Positions 3,565-42,682 of a DNA stretch of 43,772 nt are shown in pieces (within the stretch, counting starts at the first letter, position 1; each line of letters begins with the position of its first letter). Location of the stretch: contig JAUVXE010000015.1 in NCBI GenBank assembly GCA_030603745.1, forward strand, positions 1-43,772, written 5' to 3'. Under the pieces are notes generated by a model, which worked only from the letters and a program-made list of their open reading frames with translations, had not been told where the DNA came from and searched no databases. Both the position numbers and the translations under genes were made by a program. Source of the DNA: Coriobacteriia bacterium. Its GTDB lineage: Bacteria; Actinomycetota; Coriobacteriia; Anaerosomatales; SLCP01.

Positions 3565-4623
3565 ATGCGCGACGTGCTCGATCTGTGCGTGGAACTCGAC
3601 ACGATGGCGGCCGAGGCGTACCGCGCGCTCTCCTCGGCGTGCGAGGACCCTGACCTCGCCCGGCTCTTCGGCCAGATGGCCCGTGAGGAGGAGGCGCACG
3701 TCGGCTGGTGGTCGGAGCTGCTCCGCTCGTGGGAGCACGGCCTGATCCCCGACATCGTGACCGACCCCGAGGCGATCCTCGGCGACCTGCACCAGATCAG
3801 GGCCGACGTCGCCGACGCGCTCGCCGGCGACGTCGCCGCGCTCAGCCCCGCCGGCATGCTCGAGCTCGCCGCGCGCCTCGAGTACTTCATGCTCGACCCG
3901 CTCTTCGCCGAGCTCATCGATCTCACGGAACCCGCGCGCACCGGCCATCACCGCGACGCCTACCAACGCCACATCGAGCGGCTCGTCGGCGCCATCGAAG
4001 GGTACGCGGGCGCCGACGGGCTCTCCCGGTTCCTCGCCCGCGTGCTCAGGCGGGCGCTCCGCGACAACGTGGCGCTCGCGACCTACGCCACGCGCGACCC
4101 ACTCACCGGCCTGTACAACCGCCGGGGGATGCTCGGCCACCTCACGCAGTGGATCTCGTGGGCCTACCGCTACGAACGCCCGGTCATGGTGCTCCTCATC
4201 GACCTCGACGAGTTCAAGGCGGTCAACGACACGCACGGCCATGCGATCGGCGACCTCGCGCTCAAGGCGGTCGCCTCGGTGCTCGAGGGCGCCACGCGCG
4301 AGAGCGACCTCGTGGCGCGCTACGGCGGCGACGAGTTCGCGGTGGTCGCGCCGGAGACCCACGCCGAAGAGTACCCCGCGCTCGTCGAGCGCATCCTCGT
4401 CGCCGTCGGCGACGCCTTCTGCCCCGACGACGACGGCGGCTGCGTGAAGCTCTCGGTGAGCGTCGGCGGCGCCGCGCTCGCGCCCGGGATCGAGGTCACG
4501 CACAAGGTGGTGGACCTCGTGCTGGCCGCCGCCGACGCGAGCATGTACGAGGCGAAGGCCGCCGGCCGCAACCGCGCAGGCACCCCGGTGCTCGTGGACT
4601 CGGCGCTCGTCGAGCGCACCTAG
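3565..4623 (+). CDS. ferritin-like (rubrerythrin-type) domain fused to diguanylate cyclase (GGDEF)
   Basis: A 352-residue fusion. Residues 1-165 are helical and look like a rubrerythrin/ferritin-like four-helix bundle: E17, the EEEAH segment (E42/H45, an ExxH iron-ligand pattern) and a later pair of helices with EYF and DAYQRHIERL. Residues about 175-345 are a GGDEF domain with an intact active site GGDEF (254-258) and an RESD sequence at 245-248, five residues before it, which is the RxxD product-inhibition site. It should therefore make cyclic di-GMP and be feedback inhibited. A di-iron or haem-free oxygen, peroxide or iron sensor controlling cyclic di-GMP is my inference. The ATG at 3565 follows GGAGG; an upstream in-frame TTG at 3553 would lie inside that site and is rejected. 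No membrane segment is seen. Its stop codon overlaps the convergent lipA stop. Confidence 0.9.
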   Translation: MRDVLDLCVELDTMAAEAYRALSSACEDPDLARLFGQMAREEEAHVGWWSELLRSWEHGLIPDIVTDPEAILGDLHQIRADVADALAGDVAALSPAGMLELAARLEYFMLDPLFAELIDLTEPARTGHHRDAYQRHIERLVGAIEGYAGADGLSRFLARVLRRALRDNVALATYATRDPLTGLYNRRGMLGHLTQWISWAYRYERPVMVLLIDLDEFKAVNDTHGHAIGDLALKAVASVLEGATRESDLVARYGGDEFAVVAPETHAEEYPALVERILVAVGDAFCPDDDGGCVKLSVSVGGAALAPGIEVTHKVVDLVLAAADASMYEAKAAGRNRAGTPVLVDSALVERT

Positions 4624-5525
4624 CCGTCCGAGCCGCCGTCCGCGCCGCCGCCCGCGAGCTCGGCCGCGTGGTAGCTCGAGCGCACGAACGGCTCGGCGGC
4701 CACGGCGCTGAACCCGAGCGCCCTCGCCTCCCGCGCGAGCGTGCGGAAGACGTCCGGCTCCACGAACTCCGCCACCGGCAGGTGGTCCTTCGAGGGCCGC
4801 AGGTACTGGCCGAGGGTGAGCATCGACACGCCGGCCGCGCGCAGGTCGCGCACGACCGGGACGACCTCATCGGGCGTCTCGCCGAGGCCGAGCATCAACC
4901 CCGACTTGGTCGGCATCCCGTCGCCTCGCTCGCCCGCGCGCGCGAGCACGCGGAGCGACCGCTCGTAGTCCGCGCCCGGACGGACCTCGGCGTAGAGCCG
5001 AGGCACCGTCTCGAGGTTGTGGTTGAAGACGTCCGGTCGCGCGTCGGTCACGAGGTCGACCGATGCCTCCCTGCCGCCGAAGTCGCTCACGAGCACCTCG
5101 ACCGCCGCTTCGGGCAGCGCCGCCCGGACCGCCTCGACCACGGCGACCATGTGCGCGGCCGCGCCGTCTGCGAGGTCGTCGCGGGTCACCATCGTCACGA
5201 CCACGTGCGAGAGCCCCATCCGCGCGACCGCCTCGGCCACGCGCGCGGGCTCGGAGGGGTCGAGCGGCGCAGGCGTGCGCGCCTCCACCGCGCAGAAGCG
5301 GCACCCGCGCGTGCAGACGTCGCCGGCCACGAGGAAGGTCGCCGTACCGCTCGCGTAGCACTCGCCGCGGTTCGGGCACTTCGCACTCTGGCAGACCGTG
5401 TTCAGCCGCAGTTCGCCGAGGAGACCCTCGACCGCCACCGCCTTGCCGGGCGTGGCGATGGGACGCCGCAGCCACGACGGCATCCGCGCGGTCCCCTGGG
5501 CGCCGTCCCCGTGTTCGTAGGCCAT
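4620..5525 (-). CDS. lipA: lipoyl synthase LipA
   Basis: Radical SAM enzyme that inserts two sulfur atoms into protein-bound octanoyl groups to make lipoyl cofactors. Both clusters are visible: the auxiliary cluster motif CQSAKCPNRGEC (C45, C50, C56) and the radical SAM motif CTRGCRFC (C71, C75, C78). The C-terminal RSSYHA element, which supplies the serine ligand of the auxiliary cluster, is present. At 301 residues the length is normal. The ATG at 5525 is 13 nt after the lpdA stop, so lpdA-lipA form an operon; pairing a dihydrolipoyl dehydrogenase with the lipoyl maker points to use of a lipoylated complex, possibly the glycine cleavage system, whose other genes are not here. Its TAG stop overlaps the TAG of the convergent GGDEF gene by three bases. 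Confidence 0.97.
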   Translation of the reverse strand: MAYEHGDGAQGTARMPSWLRRPIATPGKAVAVEGLLGELRLNTVCQSAKCPNRGECYASGTATFLVAGDVCTRGCRFCAVEARTPAPLDPSEPARVAEAVARMGLSHVVVTMVTRDDLADGAAAHMVAVVEAVRAALPEAAVEVLVSDFGGREASVDLVTDARPDVFNHNLETVPRLYAEVRPGADYERSLRVLARAGERGDGMPTKSGLMLGLGETPDEVVPVVRDLRAAGVSMLTLGQYLRPSKDHLPVAEFVEPDVFRTLAREARALGFSAVAAEPFVRSSYHAAELAGGGADGGSDG

Positions 5526-33710: not shown

Positions 33711-34124
33711 TCACTCCCCCGCGCGCACCTCGACCTCGCCCACCGGCAGCCGCACCAGGTACACGCTGAACCCGACCCCCACCGCGAGCAGCAGCGTGTA
33801 GGCGATCGCCATGAGTCGCACGCTCGAGATCTGGTACCACACCGCCACCGACGGGATCACCACGCCCACCCACAGCAGGGCGAGCGCGATCCGCTTCACG
33901 CGCGCCGGCATCGGCGTGCCGTAGAGGAACCCGCTGATATACGGGCCGAGGAACCCGTGCGAGAGCAGCCAGTCGTGCAGCTTGCGCGACGAGCGCGCGA
34001 AACAGAACGTCGCCACGAGCAGGAACGGCGTCGCCGGCAGGATCGGGAACACGAACCCGGTCAGCCCCACGCCGAGGGCGAGCAGCCCGGTCACGATGAG
34101 CAGCGTCTTTCGCAGCCAGCTCAT
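33711..34124 (-). CDS. YbaN/DUF454 family membrane protein
   Basis: A 137-residue inner-membrane protein of the DUF454 (YbaN) family: WLRKTLLIVTGLLALGVGLTGFVFPILPATPFLLVATFCFARSS in two helices with the family's P-x-LPATPFLL-x-A motif, then LHDWLLSHGFLGPYI and two more helices. The ATG at 34124 overlaps the upstream stop as ATGA. It is the last gene of the cytochrome/maturation operon. YbaN has been reported near haem-related genes in some bacteria, but the function is unknown. Confidence 0.92.
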   Translation of the reverse strand: MSWLRKTLLIVTGLLALGVGLTGFVFPILPATPFLLVATFCFARSSRKLHDWLLSHGFLGPYISGFLYGTPMPARVKRIALALLWVGVVIPSVAVWYQISSVRLMAIAYTLLLAVGVGFSVYLVRLPVGEVEVRAGE

Positions 34125-34540
34125 GCGCCCACGCCCCCGCCCGCCGCGCGCGCGTCGCCGCCCTCGCTTGCGTCGCTGCCCGCACCCGCCTCCACGAGCC
34201 GCTTCACGCGCCGCCACAGCACCGCGCCGGCCACCACCGCCCCCACCTCGACCACGTGCTTGACCGCGATGGGCACCGCGAGGTCGTCGCGCACCGCGCC
34301 GAGGTCGTGCGTGCCGAAGAACACCACGCGCGGGATCCCGCCGAGCACCACCCATGCGAGTGCGAAGAGCGCGAACCGCGTGAGCAGCGGGTAGGCGCGC
34401 GCGAGCAGGGCGAGCTCACCCGGTCCTCCTCGGCGGGCGAGGCGGTAGAGGGCCCAGAGCACCACGGCCGACGAGAGCAGCACGGCCGTCGCCACGTCGT
34501 GGAAGTAGTTGTTCATGATGATGAGGATGTCGAGCGCCAC
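34121..34540 (-). CDS. four-helix membrane protein of unknown function
   Basis: A 139-residue protein with about four helices (ATAVLLSSAVVLWALYRL; PLLTRFALFALAWVVLGGIPRVVFF; AVKHVVEVGAVVAGAVLW). FHDVATA at residues 13-19 and KH near residue 94 are conserved-looking histidines that could bind haem. The start is a GTG at 34540, with the ATG at residue 9 as alternative; neither has a strong ribosome site. It begins 18 nt after the radical SAM gene and overlaps the YbaN-type gene by 4 nt. I do not recognise the family; the operon context suggests a role in cytochrome or haem handling. Confidence 0.8.
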   Translation of the reverse strand: MALDILIIMNNYFHDVATAVLLSSAVVLWALYRLARRGGPGELALLARAYPLLTRFALFALAWVVLGGIPRVVFFGTHDLGAVRDDLAVPIAVKHVVEVGAVVAGAVLWRRVKRLVEAGAGSDASEGGDARAAGGGVGA

Positions 34541-34558
34541 GGGTGGGCCGCCTGCCGC

Positions 34559-36031
34559 TTAGAGGAACCGTTTGGCCATGGCCTCGATCTCGACCGGGAT
34601 CCGGCCGAGACCCGCCATATGCTGCGTGAGGTAGGAGTTGTGCATGATGAGCTTCATCGACGCGATGAAGTACTCGCGCTTGTGCTTGGTCATCTGCGGG
34701 ATCCGCTTGACCTTGCCCATATAGAACCGCTTGTAGCACTCGACGACCTCGGCCATGAGCTCGTCGATCGTCATGTCGGTCGGCTTGACCACCGGGTCGA
34801 CGAGGTTGTACTTCTCCCAGTCGCGCGTGACCACATGCGGCGCGAGGTCGGGGTAGATGTCACTGTACGGCCACGGCGCGATGGTGAGGAAGAACGCGAG
34901 GTCGGGGTCGTAGTGCATCGCGAGCTCGAGGGTCGCGCGGATCGACTCGGGCGTGTCGCCCGGCAGGCCGAGGACGAGCGAGGTCTCCGAGATCATGTCG
35001 TGCTCGTTGATGAGCTCGATCGCGCGCCGCCCCTGCTCGACCACGGTGTTCTTCTTGAACATGTCGAGCGAGGCCTGGTCGGTGCGCTCCACTCCCACGT
35101 ACACGTGGTGGATGCCGGCCTCGCGGTAGAGCGGCATGATCGCCTCGTCGCGCAGGATGTCGTCCACGCGCGTCTCCATCAGGATGTAGACGCCGGTCTG
35201 GCGCTCGATGAGCAGGTCGAGGAGGCGGCGCCACCGCACGGGGTCGAGCGTGGGGGTCTCGTCGGCGAACATGACCACGCCCACGCCGTGGGTGTCGCGC
35301 AGGTGCTCGATCTCGCGGACCACGTCCTCGGGCGAGCGGGCCCGCCAGCTTCGCTCCCAGAACGCCTGCTGCGAGCAGAACGTGCACGCCTGGTCGCACC
35401 CGCGCGAGGTCGAGATGAGCGCGAGGTTGGTCTCAGGGAACGGATAGAACGTGTAGAGGTCCCAGTCCATCAGGTCCCACGCGGCCGGACGGCCGTCGAG
35501 GTCGGTCAGGAACGGCCGGGCCGGCGTGGCGTGCGGCTCGCCGTCGCGCAGGAACGCGATGCCGGCGACCTCGGCGGGGTCGCCGGCATCGGCGAGGCAG
35601 CGCACGAACTCGGGCACCGTGACCTCGCCCTCCCCGCGCATCACCACGTCGACCACGTCGCCGAACTCGCCGAGGACCTCGGCCCACATGAAGTGCGCGT
35701 GCACGCCGCCGATGCCGGTCACGACCCCCGGCACCACCTCGCGCGCGGTCCGCAGCAGCTCGATCGCCTTGGGGTACGACGCCGTGTAGGCGCTGGTCAG
35801 CACCACGTCCGGGTCGATGCGCGCAAGCTCGGCGGCGATGTCGTCGATCTCGTGGTCCATGGTCATGGCGTCGTAGATGACCGGCTCGAAGCCCGCCTCG
35901 CGCAGCTCCCCGCCGAGGTAGGCGAAGGCGGCGTTGGGCCATTTGCCCGCCGACTCGACCACGCCGCTGTGGTAGTGGGGGGTCACGAGCGCGACGCGCG
36001 GCGTGCGGCCGTTCAGTTCACGAAGTCGCAT
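34559..36031 (-). CDS. B12-binding radical SAM protein (BchE-like class)
   Basis: A 490-residue enzyme. The N-terminal B12-binding Rossmann domain covers about 12-140 (RVALVTPHYHSGVVESAG, YLGGELREAGFEPVIYDAMT, GGVHAHFMWAEVL, VMRGEGEVTVPEFV). The radical SAM cluster motif is C212, C216, C219 in GCDQACTFC, followed by FADETPTLDP and YVGVERTDQ. The C-terminus has a helical domain with IPQMTKHKREYF. Members of this class methylate unactivated carbons or, as BchE, act on porphyrins. It lies between ccsA (19 nt upstream) and two membrane-protein genes in the cytochrome operon, so a porphyrin- or haem-related substrate, or a lipid/quinone one, can be proposed but not shown. The ATG at 36031 has AGGAG 11 nt upstream. 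Confidence 0.9.
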   Translation of the reverse strand: MRLRELNGRTPRVALVTPHYHSGVVESAGKWPNAAFAYLGGELREAGFEPVIYDAMTMDHEIDDIAAELARIDPDVVLTSAYTASYPKAIELLRTAREVVPGVVTGIGGVHAHFMWAEVLGEFGDVVDVVMRGEGEVTVPEFVRCLADAGDPAEVAGIAFLRDGEPHATPARPFLTDLDGRPAAWDLMDWDLYTFYPFPETNLALISTSRGCDQACTFCSQQAFWERSWRARSPEDVVREIEHLRDTHGVGVVMFADETPTLDPVRWRRLLDLLIERQTGVYILMETRVDDILRDEAIMPLYREAGIHHVYVGVERTDQASLDMFKKNTVVEQGRRAIELINEHDMISETSLVLGLPGDTPESIRATLELAMHYDPDLAFFLTIAPWPYSDIYPDLAPHVVTRDWEKYNLVDPVVKPTDMTIDELMAEVVECYKRFYMGKVKRIPQMTKHKREYFIASMKLIMHNSYLTQHMAGLGRIPVEIEAMAKRFL

Positions 36032-36050
36032 GAGGTGCGGGGCTCCTGTC

Positions 36051-36971
36051 TCAGGTGTAGAGATACGCGCCGTGGATGGAATCGTATACGAGTGGCACGC
36101 CGAGGAGCGAGAAGACGATCACCGGCAGCGCGATCACGGCGACCCACGCGGCCCTCGTGCCGCTCCAGCCGAGCGTCAGCCGCAGGTGGAGATAGAGCGC
36201 GTAGATGCCCCACGCGATGAGCGACCACGTCTCGATCGGGTCCCAGCCCCAGTAGCGTCCCCACGCCTGGTTCGCCCAGATCGCGCCTGAGGCGAGCATG
36301 ACGCCCTGGAAGACGAACCCGGCGCCGATGAACTTGAAGGTGAGCTCGTCGATGACCTCCTGGCCCGGCAGCCGCGCGAGCACGCCCGCGAGCCGGCCGC
36401 CGGCGACGGCCGCAGCCGCACCCACGTCGCCGGGCGCAGCCGCGTCGCCTGCGCGGCCCGCACCCGCGCCCGCATCCCCCGCGCGGCCCGCACCCCGCTC
36501 GCGCAGCAGGAACGCCGCCGCGAGCATGAACGCCGCCACGTACCCGCCGTAGGCGAGGTTCGCGAAGAGCACGTGGATGATGAGCCACACGCTCGCGAGC
36601 GCGCCCGAGATCGCCTCGGACTCGCGCGAGACGAGCATCGCGCCGCCCATGATCAGGAACGCGACGGGCAGCGCGACGATCCCCACCACGCGCAGTCCCC
36701 GGTGGCGCCACGCCAGCCAGAGCAGCAGCGCGACGGTGATCCACGCGAGCAGCGACGCGACCTCGTAGAATCCCAGGTAGGGGCCGTGGCCCGTGAGCAC
36801 CCACCGTACCGCGATGCCGGTCGTGTGCGCCGCGAAGCCCGCTCCCGCGAGCGTGAGCGCCGTGCGCTCGAGCACTCCTCGGCCAAAGACGACCCCGCCG
36901 ATGAACCCCGCCGAGGAGAGCGCGTACGCTCCCACCGCCGCCCACATCGCGACCAGCTCAGCCGTGATCAC
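36051..36971 (-). CDS. ccsA: cytochrome c assembly protein CcsA (system II)
   Basis: A 306-residue haem-handling membrane protein with about eight helices. The tryptophan-rich WWD region is present as NQAWGRYWGWDPIETWSL, with the flanking histidines of CcsA (TGHGPYLGFYE near residue 60; YDSIHGAYLY at the end). A low-complexity Gly/Ala/Arg cytosolic loop (about 155-205) is longer than usual. With ResB it forms the system II synthetase that exports haem and attaches it to CxxCH motifs. The start is the GTG at 36971, overlapping the resB stop as GTGA, with GGAGG 7 nt upstream; longer frames that run through resB are rejected. Confidence 0.94.
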   Translation of the reverse strand: MITAELVAMWAAVGAYALSSAGFIGGVVFGRGVLERTALTLAGAGFAAHTTGIAVRWVLTGHGPYLGFYEVASLLAWITVALLLWLAWRHRGLRVVGIVALPVAFLIMGGAMLVSRESEAISGALASVWLIIHVLFANLAYGGYVAAFMLAAAFLLRERGAGRAGDAGAGAGRAGDAAAPGDVGAAAAVAGGRLAGVLARLPGQEVIDELTFKFIGAGFVFQGVMLASGAIWANQAWGRYWGWDPIETWSLIAWGIYALYLHLRLTLGWSGTRAAWVAVIALPVIVFSLLGVPLVYDSIHGAYLYT

Positions 36972-38320
36972 CGTTCGTCCTCCCGCCGTGAGACCGACCG
37001 CTCGACCGCCGCTCGCGCGCGCCCGGGAAAGGCCGGGTCCACGCGTCGGCACCTCGTGACGAGCACGAGCCGTGCCGGGACGCCCGCTGAGGCGTCGGCG
37101 GTCTCGTGACGCACGAACGCCGCCCTCGGCGGGGCGAGGAGCGCGACCGCCGCGCCCACGCACGCGACCGTCAGGAAGGCGTAGATGAACGGGATCGTCC
37201 AGTCGTCGACCACGAAGAGCCACACCTGGTACCCGAGCTCCTCGACCACGAGCCAGCCCGATCCGCCCGGCAGCGCCACGCGCTCCCCGACACGCGCTTC
37301 GCGCGGCCGCTCGGTCGCCGGGTCGCCCGAGCCCGGGAACGACACCAGCACCCGCGGGTCCTCGGGCACGCGCCGGAAGTAGCGGCCGCCCTCCTCGTCG
37401 AGCGGGACCGCGACCACGACCGCGTACTCCTCGGCGGGGCGACCCTCGGCGGACGCCTCGACCACGAGCGTGCCGTCGGGGCGCAGGTCGTCGAAGTGCA
37501 GCGCCGCGGGCGCCGAGCCCCGGGCCTCGCCCTCGGGGCCGAGCACGGTGAGCACTGCGCCGATCCCGTACTCGAGCTGGTGGACCGAGAGCGACCCGTA
37601 GCGCAGCGGACGGTTGGGGTAGACCCGCTGCGCGCGGACCTCCTCGCCGTCCACGAGCAGCCGCACCTGCGGCGAAGGCCCCCGCTCGACGTCGCGGTGG
37701 ACGTGGTTGATGTCCAGGTCGTCCACGGCGATCACCCGGCCGGCCGCGTGCGACGCGAGCGGCCCGGCGGTGTAGGGGTCGTAGAGGGCGGGCGTGTCGC
37801 GTGCGACCCCGCCCTCGGGCACGCCGATGACGCCCTCCCACTTCATGAGCTGGCCGAGGCCGGCGAAGATGAAGAGCCCGGCGAGCGCGTAGTGGAAGAC
37901 CGGGCTGCCGAGGGCGCCCCAGGCGTTGCGGCGGGCCCACACGCCGTCGTCGCGGCGCGCCTGCCGCAGGCCGAGGCCGCCGAGCGCCGCCTCTGCCCGC
38001 GCGAGCGCCTCCTCGGCGGACACGCCCTCCGCGAGCTCGATCCCCGCTCCGGACGCCGAGGCGAGCCGGTCGACGGCGGGCGAGGCCGGGTCGCGCCACC
38101 CGCGCAGCAACGCGAGCGCGGCGCGGGCGCGCTCCTGGGCGCAGACGGCCGTCGATGCCGTGAAGACCGCGGCCGCGGCGAGAAAGACCGGGTTCCCGAA
38201 CGAGAGCGCCTTTGGGAGGAACGTCGCGGCGACCGCGTACGCGCCGATGCCGAGGAACAGCCCCACGGCCAGCCTCCGGGATCGCAGAAGGCGCGCGGGT
38301 CGCGGCCGCCGGACCGTCAT
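36968..38320 (-). CDS. resB: cytochrome c biogenesis protein ResB/Ccs1
   Basis: A 450-residue ResB-like protein. Helices at about 18-36 and 42-60, a third after the polar region (SPVFHYALAGLFIFAGLGQLM, near 140-160), a large extracytoplasmic domain (DINHVHRDVERGPSPQVRLLVDG, VYPNRPLRYGSLSVHQLEYG), and a last helix WTIPFIYAFLTVACVGAAVALLA preceded by YQVWLFVVDD. SVHQLEYG holds the expected haem-site His region. The ATG at 38320 is 10 nt after the lipoprotein gene stop. It is split from ccsA as a separate gene, as in Gram-positives. It is directly downstream of the multihaem cytochrome it presumably serves. Confidence 0.92.
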   Translation of the reverse strand: MTVRRPRPARLLRSRRLAVGLFLGIGAYAVAATFLPKALSFGNPVFLAAAAVFTASTAVCAQERARAALALLRGWRDPASPAVDRLASASGAGIELAEGVSAEEALARAEAALGGLGLRQARRDDGVWARRNAWGALGSPVFHYALAGLFIFAGLGQLMKWEGVIGVPEGGVARDTPALYDPYTAGPLASHAAGRVIAVDDLDINHVHRDVERGPSPQVRLLVDGEEVRAQRVYPNRPLRYGSLSVHQLEYGIGAVLTVLGPEGEARGSAPAALHFDDLRPDGTLVVEASAEGRPAEEYAVVVAVPLDEEGGRYFRRVPEDPRVLVSFPGSGDPATERPREARVGERVALPGGSGWLVVEELGYQVWLFVVDDWTIPFIYAFLTVACVGAAVALLAPPRAAFVRHETADASAGVPARLVLVTRCRRVDPAFPGRARAAVERSVSRREDER

Positions 38321-38330
38321 CGGCCCCGCC

Positions 38331-38885
38331 TCATTCGACCTCGCCCCTCGGCGTGGCCTCGACGCGGTCGACGACCCACCCCTTCCCCTCCTCGACCACC
38401 ACGGTGTAGGTCACGTCGTAGGAGGCCTCGAGCACGCCGCTCGTGTAGTCGCGCGTCCGCACGTCGAAGTAGCGGTAGACCCACGACTCGCTGCCCGCGA
38501 CCACCGCCGAGGTCTCCTCGAGTGAGACGAGCCGGTACGCCGCGTCGACCGGGACCTGATGGATGCCCCGGGCCTGCTCCTGGAGGTTGCGCTGGATGTA
38601 GGAGTCGACGCGCACCTCCTCGAAGACGCTCATGGCGTGTGCCGCCACCCCGGCGTCCATCCGCACGTAGGCGAAGGAGATCCACTCGAGGTAGGAGCGG
38701 ACCGCGGACTCCGGGTCGCCGAGGTCCGGCGGCGCGGGCTCGGTGACCGGGGCGCGCGTGTCGCCGGCGAGGTCGCCCGAACCCGAGCCTGAGCATCCGG
38801 TGAGCAGCGCGCCGGCGAACAACACGCCAAGGATGAGCGCGATGAGGAGCAGGGGCCCCGCGAGGGACGGGCGGCGCGCGTCCAT
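38331..38885 (-). CDS. lipoprotein of the cytochrome operon
   Basis: A 184-residue lipoprotein: signal LLLIALILGVLFAGALLTGC with lipobox LLTGC (C31). The mature part is a single small domain (about 60-184): ESAVRSYLEWISFAYVRMD, SYIQRNLQEQARGIHQVPVDA, then beta strands ending YDVTYTVVVEEGKGWVVDRVE, reminiscent of NTF2-like or IMS/ARC6-type domains. There is no haem motif. It starts 8 nt after the cytochrome stop and ends 10 nt before resB, so it is co-expressed with both. A role as an accessory factor for assembling or anchoring the cytochrome is a reasonable guess only. Confidence 0.87.
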   Translation of the reverse strand: MDARRPSLAGPLLLIALILGVLFAGALLTGCSGSGSGDLAGDTRAPVTEPAPPDLGDPESAVRSYLEWISFAYVRMDAGVAAHAMSVFEEVRVDSYIQRNLQEQARGIHQVPVDAAYRLVSLEETSAVVAGSESWVYRYFDVRTRDYTSGVLEASYDVTYTVVVEEGKGWVVDRVEATPRGEVE

Positions 38886-38893
38886 CGCCGCGG

Positions 38894-41800
38894 CTACGGC
38901 CAGTACGGGCCGGACGAGCTGTGCGCCGCACACCCGTTCTCGGCACAGTCGGCCTGCCCGAGCACGGAAGTCGACGTCCGGACTCGGATGGCGGTCACGC
39001 CGGGCCGCTCGGTTGCGGAGAACGCGTAAGGCGGGCCGTCCTCGGGCACGCCGCCGATCGTCCCGCCGGAGACCCGGCGCATCAGGCGCGGACGCTTCCA
39101 CGCGTGCGGGATGCGCACGTGGCAGCTCACGCAGGAGTAGCCGGGCAGGTTGTACTTCGAGTTCGCGGTCGTGTTGCCCGCTCCCGTGTGGTTGTTGTTG
39201 CTGCCGCTGTGGAAGCCCGAGTTGAAGTTGCCGTGACACTTGGCGCACAGTCCCACCGGCGCGGGACCGAGGCCACCGGTCGCGTTGAGGTCGTACGGGC
39301 CGGTCCCCTTGAACCAGTCGCCGGGAGCCGATGCGTACCCGGGGCCGGAGTCGATGCCGTACGGCACGCTCGCGCCGTGGGGGCCGTTCGCCGGCCCGAC
39401 CACGTGACAGTCGGAGCACAGCACGCGCGAGCCCTTGCCCCAGCTACCCTTGAAGAGGCTGTTGTACGGGAGCGCCGGGTTCGTGATCCCGTTGAACGTG
39501 CCGACCCAGGTCTCCTTGGGCCAGTTGGTTCCCATCGAGTTGTGCCCGCCGCCGCCGGGCCAGTCCTGGAACTCCGTGGTGGTGCCGAGCGGTGCCGGGC
39601 CCGTGTAGTTGCCAAAGGCCGCGGTGTTCAGCACCGCCCCGGAGGAGTGCGGGGCCGGCAGGCCGCGCTGCGGGTGGCCTACCGTGGTGATGCCGTTGTG
39701 GCACGCCTCGCAGCGCCGGTCACGCGAGGCGAGCGCCGCCTTGACCGCCGGCAGGTGCGCGGTGTCGCCCACGGCGCCGAGGTGCTCGGCCTGGTCGCGG
39801 TGGCACCGTCCGCAGTTCTCCCCCGTGCCGGAGAAGGTCCGGCCGAGGATCGAGGCGCTCCACTCGCTGTCGAAGTCCGCATCGAGGTGCTCGAAGAGCA
39901 GGTTCGCGGCATGGCAGCCAGCGAAACAGCCCACGTTCTTGCCGTCCGTATAGGTGGTCCCGCGCACCGTGCCGGTCACGTTCGCGACGTGCAGGTCGGT
40001 CAGGTCCGGCACCGAGCCGCCGTGCCCGGCGATCCCGTGCGCGTCCACGTGGCAGGTCGCGCAGTCGCGGACGTGGCCCCCCTCGGGCGGCACCGGCGTC
40101 CACGCCGAGCGCGCGCCCGGACGCAGCGAGATGTCGCCGTCGGCGGCGGTCCACGGCTTGCGGGCCGTGTCGCGCAGCCTGCCGCCGGGAAGCCCCGCCG
40201 CCGTGCCGAAGGTCGCGTTCTCGTGGCAGAGCTCGCACGCGGTGTACTGCACCGGCTTGGGCGGCTGGAAGCTCCGCTCGATCGTGAGACGGTTGTTGAG
40301 CGCGGTCCGCGTGCCGCCGCGCGCCAGCGTCAGGTAGATGTTCTGCGTCCCGGTCGGGCGCGGGAACATCGAGGCGAGGTCGACCACCACCGTGTCGGTC
40401 ACGTACGAGGTGCTCGTGGTGGTCCGGTCGACGAGCACGGTCCCGCCGCTGATCGTCTGGCTCGGGCTCGTGCCCACGACCGTCCCGCCGAGGACGACCC
40501 GCATGCGCGCGGCGTCGTTGGAGTTGCTCGTCCGCAGCGTGGTGGTGATGCGCAATGTCGCGACGTCGGTCACGTCGATGGTCAGCACGCCGCCCTGCTG
40601 GGCGGTCCCCCGGCGGACCAGGTAGTCGGTCGAGCTGTTGTTGCTCACCTCGTTGGCCTGGATGTCGACCCCGCTCGATGAGTACTGCAGCGCCGGCCAC
40701 GGCACCGCCTCGTTCACGAGCGCCACGTACGGCCGGTGCATCGACACGATGTCGGCGGTGTGGCAGAACTCCGTGCACGACTCCTCCACCGTCGCCGTGT
40801 GCGCGGTCGCGAAGCCGGTGGTCGTCTCGACGTGCTCCTCGCCCTCGAGCACCGTGTGACAGCTCGCGCACTCGGGCGTGAGCCCACTCGGCAGCGCCGC
40901 CAGGTCGACCGGCGTGGGGTGGCACTGCGCGCACGACGCGTGGATCTGCTCGATCCAGATCCCGCCCTCGTCGTTGTCGCGCGTGTCCTTGTGGCACGAC
41001 CCGCACTCGCCGAGGCTCGCCGCGCTCGTGGCGGTGTGCGACTCGCGCGACGCCTCCCCGCCGAGGCCAGGGTTGTGTACGTTGTTCGCCCCCGCCGAGG
41101 AGTAGTCGTCGCCGTGGCACCCGTAGCAGTCCTGCGTGTCCCCCGCCGCGTGTCCGCTGATCGGCGGAAGGCGCAGCACCGTGCCGGCCGGGTAGGAGCC
41201 GTCGCGCCGCAGGCCCTCGACCGAGTCGGCGCCCACCGGCACGTAGACGCCGGCGACGCTGTCCCACACCCTCGGCGTGGCGTCGGAGCTCGAGTGACAG
41301 GTGAAGCAGAACGCGCGCACCCCGGCCGGGGTCGCGGTGGAGAGCCCCTGGCCGCGCTCGTCGGAGATGAGCGAGGCGTTACCGCGGCTCGAGCCGTGCG
41401 GATTGTGGCAGTTGTAGCAGGGCATCGGCGCGCCGGCCGGCAGCGTGCCACCCGCCGTCTTGATGCGATGGCCGGCGCCGGGCGCGTCCGCGGTCACGAA
41501 CCGCTCGATGTCGGCCGCACCGTCGGGCGCCGAGAACGGGAACGCGTCGGTGCCCCTGCTGCCGTGGCACCCGAAGCAGAGCGCCGCGAACTCGCCGGTG
41601 GCCTGGTCGGCGGCGAGGGTGGCCGCAGTGGGCATCGTGTAGCGCGCCGAGAGCGCGTCGTGCTCACTCGCGCTCCGGTGCGCCTCGTGACAGTAGAGGC
41701 AGTCGCCCTCGGCCCGCCTCGGCATGGCGGCCGAGACCGGGATCGCCGCATGCGCGTTGCTCGCGGTGTCCGCGTACACGCTCGCGCCGGGGAACCGGCC

Positions 41801-42682
41801 GAGCACCGGGTAGCCGGAGCCGTCGCGCACCGGCGCGGCGAGTGCGGGATAACCCTCGCCGTACCAGTCGTTCGTGTCGTTATGGCACGCGAGGCACCAC
41901 GTCGTGTCCGCGCCCGTCACCGGCTGCCCGTTGATCTCGGAGCGCGGCAGCATGCGGTTCGTGAGGTAGTCGCGGTGCGCGCCGTGGCAGCTGCCGCACG
42001 CGACGGTGAGGTCGGCGCCGTCGCCGCCCGCTCCCTCGAGCTCGTGACCGCTCGCGAGCTCGAACGAGTTGCGCGACCCGCCGAGGATGTCCGTCGCCGC
42101 GACCGTCCCGTCGTGGCACTCGTAGCACACGCCCGCCGAGGGGTTCTCGGCGTGCTCGGAGGCGCGGGCGAGCTTGGGCCCGGCCGCGACGTGCAGCGCA
42201 TGGCACCCGCGGCACAGGTCCGTGGCCGACGAGTACGCGGCGTGCGGCGTCGCGGTGCCCCACTCGGCCACGACCGGGCCGGCGGGGTCGGAGAGCGCCG
42301 AGTGGTTGCCGGCCGCATCGAACGCGCTCACGCGGTACCAGTACGCCTCGCCCACGAGCCCGGTGGTGTCGGTGAAGACCGGTGCGGGTGACTCGGCGAT
42401 GGCGTGGTAGGGTCCCACCCCGGCGCTCGCCCGCCAGATCCGGTAGCCGGCCACGCCCACGTCGTCGATCGAAGGGGTCCAGCTGAGCGTGGCCACGACC
42501 GGCGCGCCGCTCCCGGGCAGCGCCGCGAGCGCGCCGGGCACGGTGGGCGGCTGCACGTCGCCCGAGCCCGAGAGCACGACCGGCCCGGAAGCGAGACGGA
42601 CATCGATGGCCGCCTGCGAGCTCGCGACACCGAACACGAGAAGGGCACAGACGCCGAGGAACACGGCGATGCCGCGCACCAT
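38894..42682 (-). CDS. giant multihaem cytochrome c with fibronectin type III domain
   Basis: A 1262-residue exported protein. The signal peptide is GIAVFLGVCALLVFGVASSQAA. Residues about 45-139 form a fibronectin type III domain. I count 19 CxxCH motifs plus two CxxxCH motifs (CTEFCH and CFAGCH), 21 potential c-haems, the first at C157. A beta-rich insert without haem sites (DIQANEVSNNSSTDYLV to LTIERSFQPP) lies between haems 13 and 14 and looks like a carbohydrate- or surface-binding module. There is no sorting signal or terminal membrane helix, so retention is unclear. Start: ATG at 42682 fits the signal peptide, though a longer frame is open and no clear ribosome site is seen. It is first in the operon with resB and ccsA. 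Extracellular electron transfer is the likely role. Confidence 0.93.
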   Translation of the reverse strand: MVRGIAVFLGVCALLVFGVASSQAAIDVRLASGPVVLSGSGDVQPPTVPGALAALPGSGAPVVATLSWTPSIDDVGVAGYRIWRASAGVGPYHAIAESPAPVFTDTTGLVGEAYWYRVSAFDAAGNHSALSDPAGPVVAEWGTATPHAAYSSATDLCRGCHALHVAAGPKLARASEHAENPSAGVCYECHDGTVAATDILGGSRNSFELASGHELEGAGGDGADLTVACGSCHGAHRDYLTNRMLPRSEINGQPVTGADTTWCLACHNDTNDWYGEGYPALAAPVRDGSGYPVLGRFPGASVYADTASNAHAAIPVSAAMPRRAEGDCLYCHEAHRSASEHDALSARYTMPTAATLAADQATGEFAALCFGCHGSRGTDAFPFSAPDGAADIERFVTADAPGAGHRIKTAGGTLPAGAPMPCYNCHNPHGSSRGNASLISDERGQGLSTATPAGVRAFCFTCHSSSDATPRVWDSVAGVYVPVGADSVEGLRRDGSYPAGTVLRLPPISGHAAGDTQDCYGCHGDDYSSAGANNVHNPGLGGEASRESHTATSAASLGECGSCHKDTRDNDEGGIWIEQIHASCAQCHPTPVDLAALPSGLTPECASCHTVLEGEEHVETTTGFATAHTATVEESCTEFCHTADIVSMHRPYVALVNEAVPWPALQYSSSGVDIQANEVSNNSSTDYLVRRGTAQQGGVLTIDVTDVATLRITTTLRTSNSNDAARMRVVLGGTVVGTSPSQTISGGTVLVDRTTTSTSYVTDTVVVDLASMFPRPTGTQNIYLTLARGGTRTALNNRLTIERSFQPPKPVQYTACELCHENATFGTAAGLPGGRLRDTARKPWTAADGDISLRPGARSAWTPVPPEGGHVRDCATCHVDAHGIAGHGGSVPDLTDLHVANVTGTVRGTTYTDGKNVGCFAGCHAANLLFEHLDADFDSEWSASILGRTFSGTGENCGRCHRDQAEHLGAVGDTAHLPAVKAALASRDRRCEACHNGITTVGHPQRGLPAPHSSGAVLNTAAFGNYTGPAPLGTTTEFQDWPGGGGHNSMGTNWPKETWVGTFNGITNPALPYNSLFKGSWGKGSRVLCSDCHVVGPANGPHGASVPYGIDSGPGYASAPGDWFKGTGPYDLNATGGLGPAPVGLCAKCHGNFNSGFHSGSNNNHTGAGNTTANSKYNLPGYSCVSCHVRIPHAWKRPRLMRRVSGGTIGGVPEDGPPYAFSATERPGVTAIRVRTSTSVLGQADCAENGCAAHSSSGPYWP

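Follow-up and report, generated by a model that had tools for sequence, protein, structure and literature searches.

Seven genes lie on the minus strand between positions 42682 and 33711 of the window, the whole stretch of DNA that was analysed (43772 bases, contig C22 of a 2.14-Mb host genome that is 98.5% complete). They run in the order cytochrome, lipoprotein, ResB, CcsA, B12 radical SAM enzyme, small membrane protein (memA) and DUF454 protein (Table 1). Neighboring genes are either separated by 8-19 nt (cytochrome-lipoprotein, 8 nt; lipoprotein-ResB, 10 nt; CcsA-radical SAM, 19 nt; radical SAM-memA, 18 nt) or overlap by 4 nt (ResB/CcsA and memA/DUF454); coordinates, order and spacing all match the seven-gene layout of the preliminary description. 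The flanks measure 158 nt upstream, where a Nudix gene lies, and 182 nt downstream. The seven genes are predicted from sequence to form one transcript, and their start codons are likewise predictions. Promoter and terminator scans of the operon gave results at about chance level, and the RNA fold 3′ of it was unremarkable (z -0.62). A separate radical SAM protein, with no B12 domain match, is encoded at window positions 4620-5525.

Table 1. Genes of the operon, in order of position in the window
Feature	Coordinates	Strand	Remarks
DUF454 membrane protein, last operon gene	33711..34124	-	PF04304 94.1 bits (cut-off 35.1)
memA membrane protein, 139 aa, GTG start	34121..34540	-	30 homologues; distantly CopD-like
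B12-binding radical SAM enzyme, 490 aa, BchE sister family	34559..36031	-	TIGR02026 411.9 bits; YHSGVVESAGKW motif; CxxxCxxC cluster site
CcsA (NCBIfam name CcsB), haem ligase partner of ResB	36051..36971	-	TIGR03144 200.8 bits (cut-off 187.6)
ResB, System II cytochrome c biogenesis	36968..38320	-	PF05140 82.9 bits (cut-off 24.6)
Predicted lipoprotein, 184 aa	38331..38885	-	Hydrophobic helix, then LLTGC
Multihaem cytochrome, 1262 aa, predicted to be exported	38894..42682	-	19 CXXCH and 2 CXXXCH motifs; Cytochrome_C7 match

The giant cytochrome and its probable maturation genes

The 21 haem-binding motifs attributed earlier to the cytochrome were confirmed by counting. In 2000 shuffles of its own residues, CXXCH occurred 0.06 times on average and at most twice (observed, 19), and the Pfam Cytochrome_C7 match reached 84.7 bits (cut-off 24.8). 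A 180-residue interval separates the motifs at 636 and 816, and a PDB sequence search placed a fibronectin-III-like stretch at residues 46-133. The N-terminus is hydrophobic and ends in SQA/A, no further membrane helix is predicted and no LPxTG motif was found in the protein; export, also implied earlier, is predicted from this N-terminus together with the lack of any other predicted helix. Near the C-terminus stands CVSCHVRIPHAWKRPR, followed by two more cysteines (C...C..H). Cassette cytochromes share this arrangement, in which PHG or PHA, and then later cysteines, come after the last haem motif. Of the complete cytochrome ORFs, 28 of 49 near CcsA had the PHG/PHA signature vs. 12 of 67 others (p ~2e-5, not corrected for relatedness). 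The lipoprotein-like protein had no Pfam match at E 0.01, and its homologues occupy the same position in the cassettes of relatives. Electron transfer through the wall by the cytochrome is plausible, since isolates of the same order, Anaerosomatales, carry 17-18 multihaem cytochromes each and one of them grows on Fe(III) (PMC9686372, in the excerpts available).

CcsA, which has a GTG start, also matched Cytochrom_C_asm (132.9 bits; cut-off 29.9). The host genome bears a System I cluster elsewhere (C11:10549-25334, L094) with CcmA-, CcmB-, CcmC-, CcmE- and CcmF-type genes, among which the Pfam models CcmB, CcmE and CcmF_C were matched over cut-off and the NCBIfam Ccm models under cut-off; a CcsB-like gene on the same contig reached 100 bits vs. 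a cut-off of 187.6. Two ResB-CcsA pairs were found in the genome, both beside giant cytochromes: the pair in the operon and a second on contig C10 (L093), where the adjoining cytochrome ORFs contain 15 and 43 motifs. Because the genome has System I too, the operon's ResB/CcsA pair looks dedicated, in agreement with the preliminary description. We consider it very probable that the operon constitutes a maturation module dedicated to a single class of very large extracellular cytochromes. Two further observations concern these contigs. The C11 System I genes adjoin siroheme-route haem genes, in a genome that also bears System II cassettes, and the C10 cytochrome cluster has another B12 radical SAM gene (L093:16410-18254) on its downstream side.

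A radical SAM enzyme related to BchE

The fifth gene encodes a protein with Radical_SAM (85.1 bits; cut-off 29.5) and B12-binding (77.1 bits; cut-off 32.1) Pfam domains. It aligns over its full length with TIGR02026, the model of BchE (the ring-E cyclase of anaerobic bacteriochlorophyll synthesis), at a score under the equivalog cut-off of 481.35 bits. The next family was HpnR (145.9 bits), and models of RiPP-type B12 enzymes scored below 100 bits. Relatives in other phyla scored 392-404 bits against the BchE model, whose cut-off was passed in none of the 18 carrier genomes searched. Identity to plasmid-borne BchE of phototrophs was 37-40%, and the enzyme is shorter than four complete phototroph BchE (490 aa vs. 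548-562 aa). An N-terminal motif, Y[HR]xGxxExAGxW, is shared by the window enzyme, all six phototroph BchE and 17 of 21 members of the window's clade. Outside the order, 60 of 65 relatives have it, and the other five show up as late called starts. None of 22 other B12 radical SAM frames, one HpnR and three rSAM2 had the motif, nor did any of the 29 sequences of a second clade of the order (hereafter the 40%-identity clade). An annotated bchE on an Allocoleopsis plasmid (L182) has neither the motif nor the CxxxCxFC pattern and looks misnamed.

In a tree of 98 sequences, obtained by a quick search with a weakly supported root and sampling 50 of the 65 outside sequences and 12 of 21 and 24 of 29 of the inside ones, the six phototroph BchE formed their own clade (support 100). 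The window enzyme fell inside a Coriobacteriia clade (support 100) together with a paralogue on contig C20 of its own genome, to which it is 68% identical. Its AlphaFold model (m93195d272807) shows the fold of cobalamin radical SAM enzymes (TM 0.70 to AprD4, 0.61-0.68 to TsrM), and a PDB sequence search returned remote radical SAM matches only. The preliminary description had singled out the radical SAM gene as the surprising member of the operon. Its assignment as a B12 radical SAM enzyme stands; what that description lacked is the identity of the enzyme as a member of the BchE family, the link of which to cytochrome genes recurs across phyla.

Family resemblance and the BchE motif might mark the gene as a remnant of a bacteriochlorophyll pathway. 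BchM, the supplier of the BchE substrate, was over cut-off in none of 61 genomes, the host's included, and the true BchE form a separate clade; together with the failure of all 18 carrier genomes to pass the BchE cut-off, these results reduce the probability of a remnant to almost nothing, and we rejected it.

The enzyme might alternatively supply an oxygen-independent step of haem b synthesis, replacing HemN, ChdC or AhbD. Propionate side chains are the point of attack for BchE and for enzymes of the HemN type; ChdC was absent from all 61 genomes, and HemN was under its cut-off in the host. However, AhbC is over cut-off in the host (694.2 bits; cut-off 650), on the contig that also carries hemB and cobA-hemD (C11), and AhbD misses its cut-off of 500 by 0.3 bits (499.7 bits). 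Haem b thus has its own route in the host through AhbC and a near-threshold AhbD. In addition, relatives without the BchE-like enzyme (e.g., G018 and G022) have strong AhbD matches. A missing step in haem synthesis is therefore disfavored and, in our judgment, very improbable.

Linkage of BchE-like genes to cytochrome maturation

Linkage outside the order was counted in 70 loci, namely, the best 80 of 221 loci less L096-L104 and L126, which are 65-72% relatives belonging to the order. Within 10 kb of the BchE-like gene, CcsA was found in 49/70, ResB in 47/70, a cytochrome with at least five motifs in 41/70 and memA in 42/70, the last count being partly circular because cassette members were used to build the memA profile. 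At least one of these partners was present in 64 of these 70 loci among the best 80 of 221, spread over seven named phyla that include archaea (Thermodesulfobacteriota, 24/26; Nitrospirota, 16/17; Methanobacteriota, 9/10; Pseudomonadota, 5/5; Bacillota, 2/2; Actinomycetota, 1/2; Planctomycetota, 1/1; unassigned, 6/7). Gene orders vary among linked loci of different phyla. In 28 of the 70, memA lies on the same strand as the BchE-like gene and at most 500 nt from it. The 21 loci of this set without CcsA lack it in the fetched stretch, which in some cases was ended by the contig. Two loci (L140 and L141) share one contig, and the gene calls of relatives come from a simple caller that places some starts late.

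Linkage was far less frequent around other B12 radical SAM genes taken as controls: CcsA was near 1 of 32 (0/20 and 1/12), and memA near 0 of 32. A BchE-like gene is present on the same contig as the single CcsA-bearing control region (L267). Another eight regions, taken from carrier genomes, showed CcsA in 4/8, ResB in 6/8 and memA in 5/8, and one of them (L270) was scored as a different family. This region (G158:C122:2018-3379), from the genome of the Aromatoleum diolicum locus, holds a copy nearer true BchE (460.2 bits), and no cassette gene was found in its 8-kb contig.

Other genes also occur near the enzyme. A LuxE-like acyl-protein synthetase gene and a second B12 radical SAM gene accompany it at L113 (7283-8773 and 5662-7011) and at like loci, often in Nitrospirota and Geobacter relatives, and the Aromatoleum cassette includes a formylglycine-generating-enzyme-like (FGE-sulfatase) gene (L143:6753-7598).

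Within the order, the 40%-identity clade is the one most often linked to ccs genes, with CcsA in 14 of 33 loci; its typical layout is cytochrome-lipoprotein-ResB-CcsA(-memA) facing the enzyme gene. The other 19 loci showed no CcsA in the fetched stretch, some being ended by the contig. The window's own clade otherwise had CcsA near 0 of 23 loci and lay beside pilT in all 23; fragmentary copies of this clade (G085 and G049:C81) and fragments at G048:C92 are outside the linkage counts. Two BchE-like clades share the pilT-side site in opposite orientation and in different genomes (L072, L076-L078, L088 and L091 vs. L037-L059). Since the window's clade sits beside pilT and not beside ccs genes, the window operon may be a recent capture, in which a member of the pilT-side clade would have joined a cassette normally served by the enzyme of another clade. 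Such a replacement would suggest that the cassette needs an enzyme of this kind. PF22113, considered as a mark of cytochrome richness, had matches in enzyme-bearing genomes, yet it occurs in most genomes of the order and so separates little.

The same data bear on whether the enzyme is a passenger, that is, a general enzyme of lipid, quinone or hopanoid type in a convenient operon, with the linkage reflecting co-regulation in metal-respiring organisms. The related B12 enzymes HpnR and HpnJ act on hopanoids, and the pilT-side position of the window's clade, away from ccs genes, is what a passenger might show. Against this, the linkage spans bacteria and archaea of seven named phyla among the best 80 of 221 loci, with differing gene orders, and the matched controls had CcsA in a single case. 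We regard a passenger as unlikely, although not strongly so.

memA showed a parallel association. Its 30 homologues, most of them 14-22% identical to the window protein, have H14, D15, G68, R71, K94 and H95 invariant. The window protein had no Pfam match at E 0.01; weak matches to CopD (PF05425) were obtained for 27 of the 30 alignment members at E ≤ 1 (best, 3.8e-6), and CopD is missing from the table of the window protein itself. A suspected HemJ-like identity was set aside because Pfam points weakly to CopD instead. Foldseek gave no informative structural relative, and the top VIA-align Z of 10 is in a range common for helical bundles. CcsA lay inside 15 of 30 memA loci taken with 1.5-kb flanks; among 17 regions with wider flanks, several more showed ResB, CcsA or cytochromes, and six showed none. 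Within the order, 38 of 52 enzyme-bearing genomes had memA vs. 2 of 17 that lack the enzyme (Fisher p ~1e-5, not corrected for relatedness).

Proposed role and comparison with known systems

The haem attached during cytochrome c maturation is held to be plain haem b. The same partnership of genes in many unrelated cytochrome-rich microbes hints at an unknown step in cytochrome making. We propose a cytoplasmic role for the BchE-like enzyme, with a tetrapyrrole, either haem b or its porphyrin precursor, as its substrate; it would oxidize or cyclize a side chain, as BchE does on the 13-propionate of Mg-protoporphyrin methyl ester. memA may then handle haem between this enzyme and ResB/CcsA, which would carry it out and attach it to the apocytochrome of the operon. 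A tetrapyrrole substrate is suggested by the family, the BchE motif and the gene company; absence of the motif from the most ccs-linked Coriobacteriia clade, the many copies away from ccs genes, the score under the BchE cut-off, the shorter length of the enzyme and the ordinary haem c of solved Geobacter cytochromes argue against it. We favor the whole chain, a dedicated module plus a BchE-like enzyme acting on a tetrapyrrole, only tentatively. The stronger proposal, that BchE-like enzymes make a new modified haem (e.g., with an oxidized or ring-closed propionate) that dedicated modules of ResB, CcsA and memA attach covalently to giant cytochromes, is possible but rather doubtful.

Another candidate substrate is the apocytochrome polypeptide, which the enzyme might modify before export by C-methylation or a cross-link while the haem stays ordinary; a possible site would be the CxxCHxxxPHGW region, which is conserved at the C-terminus and has extra cysteines. 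Methylation is the presumed activity of most cobalamin radical SAM enzymes (PMC13142503, in the excerpts available), the C-terminal signature shared by cassette cytochromes could be a recognition tag, and the LuxE-like synthetase and second B12 radical SAM genes often found near the enzyme in Geobacter relatives and Nitrospirota are consistent with peptide modification. However, the nearest characterized family acts on a tetrapyrrole and its motif is kept, the RiPP-type models score low, and the C-terminal signature occurs also at C10, where no BchE-like gene was found in the fetched stretch. Such a modification is quite unlikely in our estimation. Peptide modification and hitch-hiking nevertheless remain live rivals of the tetrapyrrole proposal.

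If one of the modifying roles is true, either the haem of some giant cytochromes is tailored or their backbone is modified, and this is relevant to what sets the potentials and the conductivity of these proteins. Links between the enzyme and maturation genes occur in Anaerosomatales, Geobacter relatives, Nitrospirota, Methanoperedens/ANME archaea, Aromatoleum and Bacillota; a modified haem would represent a new, naturally occurring tetrapyrrole cofactor for extracellular electron transfer in bacteria and archaea. BchE-like genes may carry chlorophyll-synthesis labels in databases. Searches of the open-licence papers of PubMed Central yielded no account of a BchE-like enzyme joined with multihaem cytochromes or maturation genes; matches for BchE and multiheme were, judging from titles and abstracts, protein electrophoresis reviews in which the term presumably stands for butyrylcholinesterase.

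The window enzyme resembles BchE, which was reconstituted in vitro only recently (PMC13142503, in the excerpts available), in its B12-binding and radical SAM domains, full-length alignment and YHxGxxExAGxW motif. It differs in scoring under the equivalog cut-off, in being without the longer C-terminus, in belonging to a separate clade and in its link to cytochrome genes in a genome with no BchM. The operon is like other System II (Ccs) loci in its adjacent, overlapping ResB and CcsA genes, both over curated cut-offs, whereas it differs in combining them with just one giant cytochrome and with a gene for a radical SAM enzyme, in a System I-bearing genome. NrfE is likewise a haem lyase specialized for one cytochrome, at the CXXCK site of NrfA, but it serves a modified haem-binding motif, and the excerpts of PMC9012536 describe no linked radical SAM enzyme for it. 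CcmF2 by the ANME MHC-B belongs to System I (CcmF), and the terms "radical SAM," "ResB" and "BchE" do not occur in the excerpted text of PMC9012536. As in the window operon, however, a dedicated haem-ligase paralogue there adjoins one giant cytochrome, and this dedicated CcmF beside ANME MHC-B, as described in those excerpts, is a precedent.
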